Shown here: positions 2,356-6,758 of the stretch, in pieces
Position numbering within the stretch: the first letter of the stretch is position 1
Layout: every line of letters begins with the position of its first letter
NCBI GenBank assembly: GCA_020072805.1
Contig: JAIQGC010000035.1
Span: forward strand, 1 to 43,820
DNA length: 43,820 nt
Direction of reading: 5' to 3'
Source: Terriglobia bacterium
Lineage (GTDB): Bacteria; Acidobacteriota; Terriglobia; Acidiferrales; UBA7541
Translations under genes and position numbers: made by a program
The notes under the pieces: model-generated
The model's input: only the letters and a program-made list of their open reading frames with translations
Database searches by the model: none
What the model was told of the DNA's origin: nothing

Positions 2356-2787
2356 TTAAGCAGTTGCGGAGGGATTGAGGAAGCCGCGGAGAAGCGTGGA
2401 GAGGGAGTCGCGGACCTGGCGGAAGGCGGCGAGTTTTTCGGCGGGGGTGCCGGGGACGGCGGCAGGATCGGGAAGGCTCCAGTGAATGCGCTGGGGAGCG
2501 CCGGGGAAGACGGGACAGGATTCGGCGGCGCTGTCGCAGACGGTGATGACGGTGTCGAAGCGCTGGCCGGAGAATTCCTCCACGGATTTGGAGCGCTGGG
2601 CGGAAATGTCCAGGCCGATTTCGCGCAGGGCTTCGACGGCGAGAGGGTTGAGGCCGGCGGGCCTGGTTCCGGCGCTGTGAACTTCGACGGCGGCGCCGGC
2701 CAGATGGCGGAGGAGCCCCTCGGCCATCTGGCTGCGCGCGGAATTGCCGGTGCAGAGGATGAGGACGCGGCGCGGGATGGTCTTCAT
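2356..2787 (-). CDS. arsC: Arsenate reductase ArsC, thioredoxin-coupled (LMW phosphatase fold)
   Basis: ArsC reduces As(V) to As(III) in the cytoplasm. From the start at 2787 it is 143 residues, normal for the low-molecular-weight phosphatase type. The P-loop CTGNSARS holds the nucleophile Cys12. The redox pair Cys84 and Cys91 lie in CDSAAESC with the spacing of the thioredoxin-dependent class, and Asp107 in the DP motif is the expected general acid. The second P-loop cysteine often seen (NSCRS) is alanine here; it is not part of the catalytic relay. Starts at 2805 and 2829 are also open, but 2787 places the first strand at the usual distance. It is the last gene of the ars operon, 28 nt after the AhpD-like gene. 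Confidence 0.92.
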   Translation of the reverse strand: MKTIPRRVLILCTGNSARSQMAEGLLRHLAGAAVEVHSAGTRPAGLNPLAVEALREIGLDISAQRSKSVEEFSGQRFDTVITVCDSAAESCPVFPGAPQRIHWSLPDPAAVPGTPAEKLAAFRQVRDSLSTLLRGFLNPSATA

Positions 2788-2815
2788 GGATTTTGTGGAA
2801 GCCATTTTGCTGCGA

Positions 2816-3115
2816 TCACTTGTGGTCATGATCCGCCGTTTCCTGCGGTCTGGAGCGGGCGCGGGCTTCGCGAAACTGGGCGTTTACCCGGCCTGCTGAA
2901 ACGGCCATTACGATCGATTCGAGAACGCCCATTTCTTCTCTGGTGACCCCGATTTCTTTGGCGACGCCAAAGTAGTAGTCCATTCAGGGAATGCAGCCCA
3001 AGGCCATGGCGGAAGCCAGGTGAATCATCAGCGTGACCTTGGGGTCGAGGATGTCATTGTTGCGCACCGAATCGTAAAACGCCGAATAAGCCTGGGCTTG
3101 TTTTGCGGGAAGCAT
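2816..3115 (-). CDS. AhpD-like / carboxymuconolactone decarboxylase family protein, probable selenoprotein
   Basis: ATG 3115 has a clear AAAGGA ribosome site 7-8 nt upstream. Forty-three codons lead to an in-frame TGA (2984-2986), after which the same frame continues for 55 codons (MDYYFGVAKEIGV...) to a TGA at 2816-2818. With TGA read as selenocysteine this is a 99-residue protein whose residues 41-44 are C-I-P-U, aligned with the CxxC redox motif of AhpD-like proteins. The parts before and after the TGA form one continuous alpha-helical CMD domain. The histidine that follows the second cysteine by four in classical AhpD is tyrosine here. A 7-bp hairpin with a GUC loop begins 11 nt after the UGA. 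Likely role: thiol/selenol peroxidase or disulfide reductase serving ArsM or ArsC. A sequencing error in a TGC codon is the main alternative. Confidence 0.75.
2956..2972 (-). promoter_or_regulatory. Candidate bacterial SECIS element
   Basis: On the mRNA strand, CUUUGGC and GCCAAAG form a perfect 7-bp stem closed by a GUC triloop. The loop starts about 18 nt after the UGA at 2984-2986. That matches the described bacterial SECIS pattern: a short stem, a small apical loop with G in its first two positions, and a loop 16-37 nt from the UGA. Caution: the coded peptide FGVAK favours such a palindrome, so chance is not excluded. Confidence 0.55.
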
Positions 3116-3178
3116 GTTGGATTCCTTTCTCGCCGCAGAATGGACCCCGCCGCAAAGCCGCGAGCGGCGCGCCACTGC

Positions 3179-4051
3179 TCAACCGCAGCAGGAAGAAGAT
3201 TTTTGGGCGGCTGGCTGCGCAACGGCCGTGGCGGGTTTGACGGCGCGGACGAAGGCGCTGATGAATTTGCCGTCGATCTGCGGAGCGACGGCGTCAACGT
3301 CCATACCGGAGTGGGTGAGGAATTCGCGGGCTTCATCGAGGGTGTAGATGCGCGTGGGCTCGACGGTGATCGAGGAGAAGCCGGCGCGGGCCAGCTTTTC
3401 GCGGTATTCGTTTTCTTCAAGGGCTCCGGCGACGCAGCCGGCCCACAGTTCCATGTTGCGGCGGATATCGGCAGGGACTTCGCCGCGCACCACGACGTCC
3501 GAGACGGCGAAACGTCCGCCGGGTTTGAGCACGCGGAAGGCTTCGGCCAGGACGCGGTCTTTGTCGCCGGAGAGATTGATGACGCAATTGGAGATGATGA
3601 CGTCCACGGAGTTATTGGGCAGAGGAATATTTTCGATGGCCCCCTTGAGGAATTCGACGTTGGTGGCGCCGGCCTTGCGCTGGTTTTCGCGGGCCAGGGA
3701 AAGCATCTCGTCAGTCATGTCCAGGCCGTAGGCTTTGCCCGTGGGGCCGACGCGGCGCGCGGAGAGCAGGACGTCAATACCGCCGCCGGAGCCGAGATCC
3801 AGAACGGTTTCGCCGGGGCTGAGCTGGGCGAGAGCGGTGGGGTTTCCGCAGCCGAGCGAAGCGGCCACGGCATCGGCGGGCAGGGAGCCCTTCTGCGATT
3901 CGTCGTAGAGATTGGTGGTGATGGGGTCGCAGGCGCTGAGTTCCGCGCCGCCGCCGCAGCAGGCAGCTTTGCCGCTGGTGACCTGGCGGGCGGCGGCCGC
4001 GTACTTCTGTTTCACGGCTTCCTGGATATTGACTGTGCTGTTCTCGGACAT
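3179..4051 (-). CDS. arsM: Arsenite S-adenosylmethionine methyltransferase ArsM
   Basis: ArsM methylates As(III) stepwise to volatile or less toxic methylarsenicals using SAM. Start 4051 (MSENST) is chosen over 4069 because AAGGAG lies 7 nt upstream; this gives 290 residues. The SAM site VLDLGSGGG is at residues 83-91. The three cysteines that bind arsenite in the family are present as Cys68 (SLGCGNP), Cys156 (SNCVINL) and Cys206 (WAGCVAG). An extra Cys pair near residue 31 and a C-terminal SSSCCG tail may help shuttle arsenic. It lies 30 nt after arsR and 63 nt before the AhpD-like gene, which could supply the reductant ArsM needs. Confidence 0.95.
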
Positions 4052-4081
4052 ATGTTTCTCCTTTTTCAAATGCGCGTCCTT

Positions 4082-4447
4082 TCAGGAGGACGGGCGAAAA
4101 GCAATCTGGTTCAAGGGCACGATGGCCTCCGGAGCGACGGCCTGGTTGCGCGTGCAGCACTCGTCATAGAGGAATCCGAGCAGCTCGCGCAGCGCGGCGC
4201 TTTCGGCGGCGTACCAGAGAAACTGGCGGTCGCGGCGGACGGAGACCAGCCCCACCTGCTTGAGCTTTTCGAGGTGGTGAGAGAGCGTCGAGGCGGGGAT
4301 GGCCAGCTCGTTCTGAATGTCTCCGGCGCACAACCCGGCGGGATGGGCGGAAAGAAGCAGGCGGACAATCTGCAGGCGTGGCTCGGCGCCGAGAGCGGCA
4401 AAGCGGTCGGCGCAGCGGGTGACCAGGAGTGGATGGGGCTTGCTCAT
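4082..4447 (-). CDS. arsR: ArsR-family metalloregulator
   Basis: This is a 121-residue winged-helix repressor of the ArsR/SmtB family, expected to release its operator when As(III) binds. The helix-turn-helix is around residues 40-65 (IQNELAIPASTLSHHLEKLKQVGLV), followed by the wing (SVRRDRQFLWYAA). Adjacent Cys97-Cys98 near the C terminus, with Cys12 and Cys40, are candidate arsenite ligands. The position resembles the C-terminal Cys sites of some ArsR branches rather than the N-terminal ELCVCDL site. It is first in the ars operon and has a promoter and an inverted repeat immediately in front of its ATG, which points to autoregulation. Confidence 0.92.
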   Translation of the reverse strand: MSKPHPLLVTRCADRFAALGAEPRLQIVRLLLSAHPAGLCAGDIQNELAIPASTLSHHLEKLKQVGLVSVRRDRQFLWYAAESAALRELLGFLYDECCTRNQAVAPEAIVPLNQIAFRPSS

Positions 4448-4482
4448 ATTTCGATAGTTGCGGAAATAAGGAAATATGTCAA
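4448..4482 (-). promoter_or_regulatory. arsR promoter with overlapping operator-like inverted repeat
   Basis: On the minus strand there is a perfect -35 TTGACA (4477-4482), 17 nt of spacer and a weak -10 AACTAT (4454-4459), only 6 nt from the arsR ATG, so the mRNA would be nearly leaderless. The inverted repeat ATTTC (4448-4452) / GAAAT (4463-4467) covers the -10 and start site, where a repressor would block transcription. Confidence 0.6.
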
Positions 4483-4569
4483 GGGCTTTTTTTCGGAGCG
4501 TCCCAGGCGGGCTGGAAACCCTCCCCCGGTTCCCTTACACGGGCTGCGGAAACTTTCTCGACTTCATTT

Positions 4570-4616: not shown

Positions 4617-6758
4617 ATGAACCTTTTTTCCAGGATTTCCATGCGCATAGACATCGAGAAGGGCCGGCGGGCGGGAGGGGCGGTGGCGGTTGTATTGCTT
4701 TGCTTCCTGGGGCTGAGCGTGGCGGCAAAGGCGCAGACGACGTCGGGAAAGGGCGCAGCGGCGCGCGTGCGGGAAGAGAAGGCGCCGAGCTCAGCGACCG
4801 GGACGGAGCGGTCGGAGGCATATTACAGCTTTGCCATGGGACATATCGCGGAGCTGCTCTTTGAATCCACGAACCGGGAGGAGTACGCCTCGCAGGCGCT
4901 GAATTATTACAAGCGGGCCTACGGGCTGGACCCAAAGTCCACGGTGATCGGCGAGCGGCTGGCGGAGATGTACTGGAAGACGCAGAGGATCAAGGAGGCG
5001 GTGCAGGAGTCCGCGGAGATATTGAAGCGCGATCCCAGCAGCCTGGCGGCGCGGCGCTTGCTGGCGCGGATTTATCTGCGCAGCCTGGGGGATTTGAACG
5101 CGGCCTCGGGGCAGACGGAGGCGCTGGAGCGCGCGGCGGAGCAGTATCGGGAAATTTTGCGGCTGGATCCCACGGATACGGAGTCGGGGCTGTGGCTGGT
5201 GCGGCTCTACCGTCTGCAGAACCAGAATGAGAAGGCGGAAGAGGTGCTGCGCGGGCTGCTGCGCAACGAAACGGGAGAGGAAGCGGTGGCGGAGCAGTTG
5301 TCGCAACTGCTGCTGGACGAAGGTAAGACCGGGGAGGCCGTGCAGTTGCTGGAGGGACTGACGCAGGACGGAACTTCGGCGGACCTGCTGGAACTTCTGG
5401 GAAATGCCTACACGCAGGCGGGAGACCTGGGCAAGGCCGAAGGGGCCTATCGCAAGGCGGCGGAGGCGGAGCCGGCGGACCGGGGCCGCGCGCGGGGGCT
5501 GGGGCAGACGCTGTTTTCGGAAGGAAAGTTCGCCGAAGCGCTGGAGGTTTACAAACGGCTGGCGGAAGCGGAGCCGGCGGATGCGGAAGTGCATCTGCGG
5601 CTGGCGCAGATTTACCGGGAATTGCACCAACTGGATAAAGCGGAGAACAGCCTGCTGAAGGCGCGGCAGTATGCCCCGAACAATCTGGAGGTGCAGTACA
5701 ACGAAGCGCTGCTTTATGAAGCGCAGGGGCGCTTCGATGATGCTATTCGAGTGCTTTCGGGAGCGGTGGCGGGGCTGAAGGGAAGTGGCGGGAACGCGGA
5801 GGGACAACATACGCTGGCGGTTCTTTACCAGCAATTGGGAATGCTCTACCGCGAGGTGCAGAACTATTCCGCGGCAGTCTACAGTTTCGAGGAGATGAAA
5901 CATTTTGGCGAGGAAGAGGACCGGCGGGCGCGGCTGCTGCTGATGGATACGTGGAGGATCGCGCGGAACATGCCGCGGGCGCTGGAAGAGGCGCGGGCGG
6001 CGGCCGAGAAGTATCCCAACGACGGCGCGGTGCGGGCCAGCCAGGCGCTGCTGCTGAGCGAAAACGGGCAAGTCGAGCAGGCGGCCAAGCTGCTGGAGAG
6101 CCACATGACCGGAACGGCGGCGGACCGGGAGAACTACATCAATCTGGCGCAAGTGCGCGAGCGGGCGCGGCAGTATAAACAGGCGGAAGAGTCGGCGCGC
6201 AAGGCCGAGTCGCTGGCGGGCGGGCCGGGGGAGAAGGAAGCGGCATGGTTTCTGCTGGGGGCCATCTACGAACGGCAAAAGATGTTTGGGCGCGCGGAGG
6301 AAGAGTTCAAGAAGGCGCTGGCGGTGAATCCGCGCAACGCGGCGGTATTGAATTATTACGGCTACATGCTGGGGGAACAGGGAGTGCGCCTTGAGGAAGC
6401 GCACGGGATGGTGCAGCGGGCGCTGGCCGAGGAGCCTTACAGCGGAGCCTATCTGGACAGCCTGGGCTGGATTTATTACAAGCAGAACAAGCTGGTGGAG
6501 GCCGAAGAGGCGTTGCACAAGGCGCTCGAGCGCGAAAGCCACGACCCGACGATCCACAGCCACCTGGGGGACGTCTATTTCCGCGGCGGGCACAAGGAGA
6601 AGGCCGTCGGGGAATGGGAAAAGGCGCTGGCGGAATGGCGCGCGGAGCTTCCCGCGGAGGTCGAAGGGGAAAAAGTCGCGGAGCTGGAAAAGAAGCTGAG
6701 CGACGCGCGGCGGCGCGTGGCGGCGCACAAGCCGGCCGCGCGGGAAGCGAAGCCGTAG
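4617..6758 (+). CDS. Exported tetratricopeptide-repeat protein
   Basis: A 713-residue protein with an N-terminal signal or anchor (about residues 17-41: AGGAVAVVLLCFLGLSVAAKAQ) followed almost entirely by TPR helical pairs. Repeats are visible as A-x3-Y/L-x5-P pairs, for example ALNYYKRAYGLDPKS, YRKAAEAEPADRGRARGLGQ and LHKALERESHDPTIHSHLGDV. Start 4617 is chosen for the TGGAG site 5 nt upstream; the open frame further 5' has no ribosome site. TPR proteins scaffold protein complexes, in the periplasm if the signal works. No enzymatic domain is visible. It is 7 nt upstream of ispE and probably cotranscribed with it. The charged C-terminal tail (about 50 residues, Lys/Glu/Ala-rich) may be coiled. 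Confidence 0.85.
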   Translation: MNLFSRISMRIDIEKGRRAGGAVAVVLLCFLGLSVAAKAQTTSGKGAAARVREEKAPSSATGTERSEAYYSFAMGHIAELLFESTNREEYASQALNYYKRAYGLDPKSTVIGERLAEMYWKTQRIKEAVQESAEILKRDPSSLAARRLLARIYLRSLGDLNAASGQTEALERAAEQYREILRLDPTDTESGLWLVRLYRLQNQNEKAEEVLRGLLRNETGEEAVAEQLSQLLLDEGKTGEAVQLLEGLTQDGTSADLLELLGNAYTQAGDLGKAEGAYRKAAEAEPADRGRARGLGQTLFSEGKFAEALEVYKRLAEAEPADAEVHLRLAQIYRELHQLDKAENSLLKARQYAPNNLEVQYNEALLYEAQGRFDDAIRVLSGAVAGLKGSGGNAEGQHTLAVLYQQLGMLYREVQNYSAAVYSFEEMKHFGEEEDRRARLLLMDTWRIARNMPRALEEARAAAEKYPNDGAVRASQALLLSENGQVEQAAKLLESHMTGTAADRENYINLAQVRERARQYKQAEESARKAESLAGGPGEKEAAWFLLGAIYERQKMFGRAEEEFKKALAVNPRNAAVLNYYGYMLGEQGVRLEEAHGMVQRALAEEPYSGAYLDSLGWIYYKQNKLVEAEEALHKALERESHDPTIHSHLGDVYFRGGHKEKAVGEWEKALAEWRAELPAEVEGEKVAELEKKLSDARRRVAAHKPAAREAKP

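Follow-up and report, generated by a model that had tools for sequence, protein, structure and literature searches.

Selenocysteine (Sec) is already known from several protein families that bear on the locus described here. Excerpts from a review (PMC13188914) list CMD/AhpD selenoproteins with a CxxU motif, ArsM selenoproteins and Sec-containing forms of HgcA and HgcB, and describe a fused ArsM-AhpD selenoprotein with three Sec residues and the motifs UxxG and CxxU. HgcA and HgcB are occasionally selenoproteins (Haft and Gwadz 2023, as cited in passages of PMC13188914 and PMC11588087), arsR and other ars genes are placed near hgcAB in an excerpt from PMC10349881, and CMD-like CxxU selenoproteins (PF02627) appear in passages of marine surveys (PMC1088965, PMC2398784) and of PMC13188914. 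A stand-alone CxxU CMD form linked to arsM or hgcAB was not found in the literature searched, two pertinent Haft papers (PMC12013261, PMC9879109) lying outside the scope of that search. Nor did the search return a paper linking a CMD/AhpD protein with hgcA or hgcAB, except the review whose excerpts table both (PMC13188914).

The window analysed here, meaning the whole stretch of DNA under study, is a complete contig of 43,820 bases (C121) from a 3.98-Mb assembly that is 99.77% complete. On its minus strand it carries a 99-codon gene, for which we coin the name cmdU (2816..3115), that is predicted to encode a CMD/AhpD-fold selenoprotein with Sec at codon 44. The host is characterised as a soil-type bacterium. 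We tentatively propose that cmdU represents an uncharacterised family of stand-alone CxxU CMD selenoproteins, a shared selenol accessory of ArsM and HgcAB, systems whose methylation chemistry differs, that has been captured next to arsM more than once. To our knowledge, the in-cell reductant or metal-delivery step of arsenic and mercury methylation is poorly defined, and our proposal names a candidate partner for both processes that, if true, ties them to selenium supply.

The cmdU gene and the identity of codon 44

The cmdU gene begins at an ATG (3115-3113, minus strand) with GAGAAAGGAA immediately upstream. Its codon 44 is a TGA (2984..2986, minus strand, read from 2986 to 2984) within the motif C41-I-P-U44, and exactly 55 codons follow before the TGA stop at 2818-2816. 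A sequence-only reading of this stretch had pointed to an in-frame TGA in place of the second cysteine of a CxxC motif (C-I-P-TGA) and to 55 codons between it and a second stop, and both observations hold, on the minus strand. It had also anticipated that conventional callers would drop or split the gene; the table-11 open reading frame listing of the window does break cmdU into two pieces, and the gene may therefore escape callers in which Sec is not modelled. The product scores 40 bits against the Pfam CMD family PF02627 (cut-off 23), which places it in the CMD superfamily.

Homologues give a consistent picture of codon 44. In the 58 rows aligned at E 1e-10 that include this site, the codon is TGA in 34, TGC or TGT in 24 and nothing else. 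Four of the 34 TGA rows repeat a copy already supplied by another record, leaving 30 distinct copies from, by our count, about 28 genomes. Homologous frames run past codon 44, and the pattern in which all relatives end there, named by the sequence-only reading as one that would speak against Sec, is absent. Searching 396 phylum genomes gave four further cmdU homologues (47-66% identity), each with TGA at the same place, and a class-wide search of 399 genomes returned the window and its sister genome plus twelve weak, stop-free matches at 27-32% identity. A scan of genome_contigs yielded 50 cmdU-related loci, and the search of viral_contigs found no cmdU relative. The presence of this TGA in further assemblies speaks against a sequencing error. 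The TAG at one locus (L062) is the terminal stop codon of its gene. A WOR-3 genome (L069) carries tandem cmdU copies (5568-5834 and 6001-6267) with TGA in both; the first copy, which bears an additional TAG at codon 8, stayed in the codon, hairpin and pair counts.

Comparison with the sister genome gave a dN of 0.114 and a dS of 0.399 downstream of the TGA (dN/dS 0.29), with a dN/dS of 0.12 upstream. The six codons from 48 to 53 are unchanged between the two, though with only about four synonymous sites among them.

The genome that holds the window encodes selA (449 bits), selB (354.4 bits, cut-off 242.25), selD (347.5 bits, cut-off 125, with one in-frame TGA in its own frame) and the tRNA-Sec gene selC with anticodon UCA (61.1 bits, cut-off 47). 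The sequence-only reading had suggested looking for these four genes and had named a genome devoid of Sec machinery as the outcome to count against it; all four are present, and by gene content the cell can insert Sec. Given its own in-frame TGA, SelD (L010, about 1500-2470) is itself a candidate selenoprotein. A SelA match occurs in 36 of 36 genomes of the genus and is full-length in 34, and judged by these matches the Sec machinery looks old in the genus, unlike cmdU, which is found in two of the 36. In a comparison of 22 genomes of our own choosing, selA was present in 14 of the 15 TGA-form genomes tried (the remaining one, without a match, is possibly an incomplete bin), in none of four Vibrio-like genomes carrying the Cys form and in all three Cys-form genomes of Geobacter or Syntrophobacter type. 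Use of UGA as an ordinary sense codon was considered and rejected, as cmdU itself ends in TGA and both tRNA-Sec and SelB are present.

The hairpin downstream of codon 44

The putative SECIS hairpin, CUUUGGC-GUC-GCCAAAG (2956..2972, minus strand), has a 7-bp stem and a GUC triloop; its stem begins 11 nt after the UGA (2972-2956) and its loop starts 18 nt after it, just as the sequence-only reading had described. That reading had also held the hairpin to fit bacterial SECIS geometry. Set against a bacterial SECIS model given in an excerpt from PMC13188914 (energy limit -7.5, loop spacing 16-37 nt), the stem, loop, position of the G and spacing all agree, and the energy of the bare hairpin (-7.3 kcal/mol; -9.7 for a 42-nt stretch) lies slightly above the limit.

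A single hairpin by itself is weak evidence, and it is conservation across relatives that makes the case. A loose bacterial SECIS model (energy limit -7.25) fits 88 of the 952 UGA triplets in the window, counted on both strands and in any frame, and folding z-scores for three stretches (-0.74, +0.26 and -1.15) are weak. A 7-bp stem with a G-first triloop at the same spacing is rarer, occurring at 40 of 87,490 positions and after two of the 952 UGA triplets, that of cmdU included. Among the homologues, a hairpin whose G-bearing loop begins 17-18 nt past the UGA is present in all 34 TGA rows, while among the 24 Cys rows 22 lack any candidate hairpin and the other two have trivial ones (-2.1 and -0.6 kcal/mol). 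The stem is shortened to 6 bp in four TGA copies, three of which have a five-base loop.

The pairing itself is also maintained. Over the 30 distinct TGA copies (with the second-record pairs L023/L064, L059/L068, L060/L070 and L061/L089 merged before the pair count), 98.1% of helix cells pair, whereas structures slid along the alignment pair in just 20.5-56.2% of cells. Thirteen helix cells are changed on both sides, 11 of them by replacement of UA with CG at the second pair. In a shuffle test that ignores kinship among the copies, none of 500 shuffles matched the observed pairing, the count of doubly changed cells or the covariation score, 22 of 500 matched the count of pairs changed on both sides (3), and 9 of 500 matched the further pair types (7).

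The codons that form the loop encode Gly-Val in 34 of 34 TGA rows and in none of the 24 Cys rows, a distribution from which it follows that the hairpin RNA probably constrains the peptide, and not the reverse. The sequence-only reading had cautioned that the FGVAK peptide makes the hairpin less improbable than it looks; its caution about a lone hairpin stands, but the peptide as an explanation can be reversed, Gly-Val being found at the loop codons only where codon 44 is TGA. Taken with the homologues and the selection on the downstream frame, these features make cmdU almost certainly a selenoprotein gene, in which SelB would decode UGA-44 as Sec at the adjacent hairpin.

Genomic context of cmdU and its relatives

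An arsenic methylation operon had been proposed as the setting of the gene, and the order found is arsR-arsM-cmdU-arsC, all on the minus strand. The arsenite methyltransferase gene arsM (3179..4069, minus strand; PRK11873 type, 374.7 bits, cut-off 263) has no in-frame TGA and is listed from a TTG, its true start possibly being the ATG at 4051. Ahead of it lies a gene for an ArsR-type metalloregulator (4082..4447, minus strand; NF033788, 66.2 bits, cut-off 55). The arsC open reading frame, of LMWP arsenate reductase type (2356..2829, minus strand), scores 71.5 bits against Pfam LMWPc (cut-off 23.2) and 128.2 bits against TIGR02691, below the cut-off of 174.3; its listed start overlaps cmdU, and the ATG at 2787 is the likelier one.

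The segment common to the window and the sister genome, flagged as the same genus (G214, locus L064), spans 2814..3134 (minus strand), a 321-bp stretch of 85% identity that consists of cmdU and the 19 bp before it, with no similarity just outside. An arsM match at E 1e-60 is present in 32 of the 36 genomes of the genus, and among the 20 matches taken, the window's included, none of the 19 other arsM loci has a CMD gene beside it, with an arsC match 22-168 bases downstream of arsM in 17 of the 19. Taken together, these arsM loci lacking cmdU and the bounded 321-bp segment argue that cmdU is an addition to an older arsR-arsM-arsC operon, to which it apparently came as a single-gene segment. At the sister locus a 5' piece of arsC (L064, 771-887; 39 residues, 61.5% identical, E 9e-12) separates arsM from cmdU, with a fuller arsC copy further downstream of cmdU, as though arsC had been the landing site of the cmdU segment. 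The ArsM proteins of Deltaproteobacteria are 41-43% identical to that of the window, and the arsM-cmdU pairing seen here probably arose separately from theirs. This argument draws on the genus comparison and not on the CMD tree, which treats L073 as a separate group and has three changes of the arsM link, at least one of them forced, so that more than one origin is not forced. At the left end of the window, positions 1-300 have a lower GC content (0.51) and an open reading frame at 16-1425 appears to join a sugar-nucleotide-dehydrogenase-like start to a PurH-like protein (names assigned by eye), possibly marking a chimeric contig end.

Neighbouring genes were compared over 33 loci (the window, L062, L064-L093 and L098), with the Vibrio-like clade set aside. 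The count used tblastn with 12 queries at E 1e-5 and is limited to the gene types queried; the window and L063 lie outside the tblastn neighbour database, and the window's neighbours were taken from profile scores. An arsM gene is located upstream, in the same orientation, in 7 of the 33 loci, namely the window and L064 in Terriglobia, L073 in Anaerolineales, L077, L081 and L082 in records titled Deltaproteobacteria, and L079 in Syntrophales; in L081 arsM and cmdU are separated by a second methyltransferase gene. The three ArsM proteins scored besides the window's (L073, L077 and L079) pass the PRK11873 cut-off, and weak ArsM-like matches in L071 and L088, both on the opposite strand and the latter more than 4 kb away, were left out. 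An hgcA gene is found beside the cmdU-family gene in 7 of the 33 loci (L072, L073, L074, L076, L084, L088 and L090), in two of which, L072 and L076, the CMD gene is the Cys form. The two HgcA proteins scored against NF040863 reach 413.6 (L073) and 444.5 bits (L074) over a cut-off of 275, and the five hgcA loci with an NVWCAAGK motif, which are those examined, all have a HgcB-type two-cluster ferredoxin frame after hgcA. The sole locus with both arsM and hgcA, from Anaerolineales bacterium BS150m-G17 (L073, 4631-7870), reads arsR-arsM-cmdU-hgcA-hgcB. An hgcA-hgcB-cmdU arrangement is found in the named strain Geotalea toluenoxydans JCM 15764 (L090), a relative of Geobacter. ArsP-like permeases occur near cmdU in L079 (198.7 bits), L086, L092 and, weakly, L080, and add three loci to those linked to arsM or hgcA.

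At least one of arsM, hgcA and an ArsP-like gene accompanies cmdU in 16 of the 33 loci and none does in 17. These 17 include two records, L091 and L098, whose sequence starts at the gene or no more than 265 bases from it, and one, L068, of just 3.4 kb. By our estimate, assuming about one such gene per ~4-Mb genome and a 12-kb stretch, chance would give ~0.3% of loci, so the excess is large, though related loci are not independent. No arsM or hgcA was found in the 19 Cys-form Vibrio-like loci or in 15 distant CMD loci (flanks of about 1.5 kb), and the four other phylum homologues have no ars genes within about 1.5 kb. The window's own genome gave no HgcA match, and the mercury link concerns relatives only. 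A coupling of the protein to ArsM or ArsC had been put forward in the sequence-only reading; the recurrent gene pair strengthens the former, and the latter finds no support beyond the window operon and the sister genome.

Several further features of these loci were observed in passing. Related MarR-type regulators precede hgcA in L072, L074, L076, L084, L088 and L090 (at about 4000-4490), those of L072 and L076 bearing a CCDECCGEQ cysteine cluster, and a distant MarR-type relative precedes the ArsP-like gene of a Gemmatimonadota locus (L086). In other genomes of the phylum, ArsM-like matches with one or two in-frame TGA codons (L039-L044, L049 and L050) are candidate Sec-ArsM proteins.

Candidate roles and comparison with known systems

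The predicted model of CmdU (pLDDT 88.9) is consistent with a small all-helical CMD/AhpD-fold selenoprotein in which Cys41-X-X-Sec44 sits at the start of a helix. Its best solved match, the CMD protein 3bey (TM 0.74), also ranks first by sequence, and AhpD itself (1gu9) matches the fold weakly (E 0.3). The label AhpD-like is apt at the level of superfamily and fold (PF02627, 3bey) and does not by itself imply a peroxidase activity of the AhpD kind. The proton relay of M. tuberculosis AhpD (Glu118, His132 and His137) presumably corresponds, by simple offset from the CxxU, to Leu29, Pro43 and Tyr48 of CmdU. Membership of the arsenosugar peroxidase-like family TIGR04169 was rejected (23.2 bits, cut-off 120), leaving the suggested arsenic-sugar connection of such CMD proteins unsupported here.

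ArsM binds As(III) through cysteines and requires a thiol reductant, and HgcAB requires reduced conditions and Hg(II) in an exchangeable form. A selenol protein beside both arsM and hgcAB would most simply supply reducing equivalents or exchange metal(loid) ligands. The Cys-X-X-Sec pair would then serve metal(loid) methylation, with CmdU most likely acting as a thiol/selenol reductant, or as a partner in ligand exchange, and thereby holding As(III) in a reduced, labile state for the methyltransferase, and playing the same role for Hg(II) in relatives beside hgcAB; alternatively, it may re-reduce the methyltransferase or the methylated product. The frequent position of cmdU relatives beside arsenic or mercury methylation genes hints at a shared helper for toxic-metal methylation, and we put the chances that CmdU is a selenol accessory of metal(loid) methylation at about even. 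Gene neighbourhood cannot separate a reductant from a ligand-exchange protein.

The 17 loci without an arsM, hgcA or ArsP-like neighbour mean that CmdU may have a role beyond metal(loid)s. One alternative is a selenoprotein of general thiol-redox function or peroxide defence, an AhpD-like adaptor whose ars and hgc placement reflects thiol stress only; it would account for those loci, for the CMD fold with CxxC or CxxU and for the four phylum homologues without nearby ars genes. Adjacency to arsM and hgcAB nevertheless recurs in records titled as several phyla, fused ArsM-CMD selenoproteins exist in NCBIfam and in print, and the residues at the AhpD relay positions, placed by offset, would be Leu, Pro and Tyr; we regard this explanation as somewhat unlikely.

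CmdU could instead be a soft-metal(loid) shuttle or trap, its Cys-Sec pair binding As(III), methyl-As(III), Hg(II) or methyl-Hg and handing it to ArsM, HgcAB or an exporter with no redox turnover. The arsM, hgcAB, Acr3-type and ArsP-type neighbours share a soft-metal(loid) substrate, and the window protein ends in a His/Asp-bearing tail that is conserved in the sister genome; the tail is missing, however, from the five other homologues aligned with these two, and CxxU at a helix start is a classic redox arrangement too. As a full account a shuttle is rather improbable, and it overlaps the ligand-exchange half of the accessory role that we favour. A last reading, in which a Cys gene has acquired the TGA by nonsense mutation or through a sequencing error, or in which the TGA is a genuine stop, and the gene is a broken pseudogene, accords with the standard code and with the rarity of cmdU in its genus (2 of 36 genomes). 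It is contradicted by the recurrence of this TGA in 30 distinct copies (about 28 genomes), by the conserved hairpin and by purifying selection downstream, which leave it with next to no probability.

The accessory role that we favour can be set beside the described selenoproteins. No NCBIfam model reaches its cut-off on the window CmdU or on its relatives in L066, L072, L073 and L095. The ArsM/AhpD-domain selenoprotein NF041537 likewise combines ArsM with a CMD/AhpD domain bearing CxxU, and the window CMD protein matches its C-terminal part; the window, by contrast, has two separate genes with an ArsM that lacks TGA, and neither ArsM (189.2 bits) nor CMD (41.3 bits) approaches the cut-off of 510. 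The ArsM_AhpD_UU model finds a match in all 297 phylum genomes searched and exceeds its cut-off in none, which says little on fusions. The best NCBIfam match of CmdU is the C-terminal part of MduS (NF045649, methyltransferase-domain double selenoprotein; 46.3 bits, cut-off 380), which differs in being one protein that includes a methyltransferase domain. The GSU3128 family (NF041047) also belongs to the CMD superfamily and carries CxxU, and CmdU falls outside it at 30.9 bits against a cut-off of 110. Published CMD-like CxxU selenoproteins, as described in excerpts and including MBW1767730.1 from a table of PMC13188914, share the superfamily and the motif with the cmdU family, a comparison by description only. 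The HgcA and HgcB selenoproteins, again as excerpted, bring selenium into mercury methylation, as may the cmdU relatives beside hgcAB, but in the cmdU case the Sec sits in a separate CMD protein.
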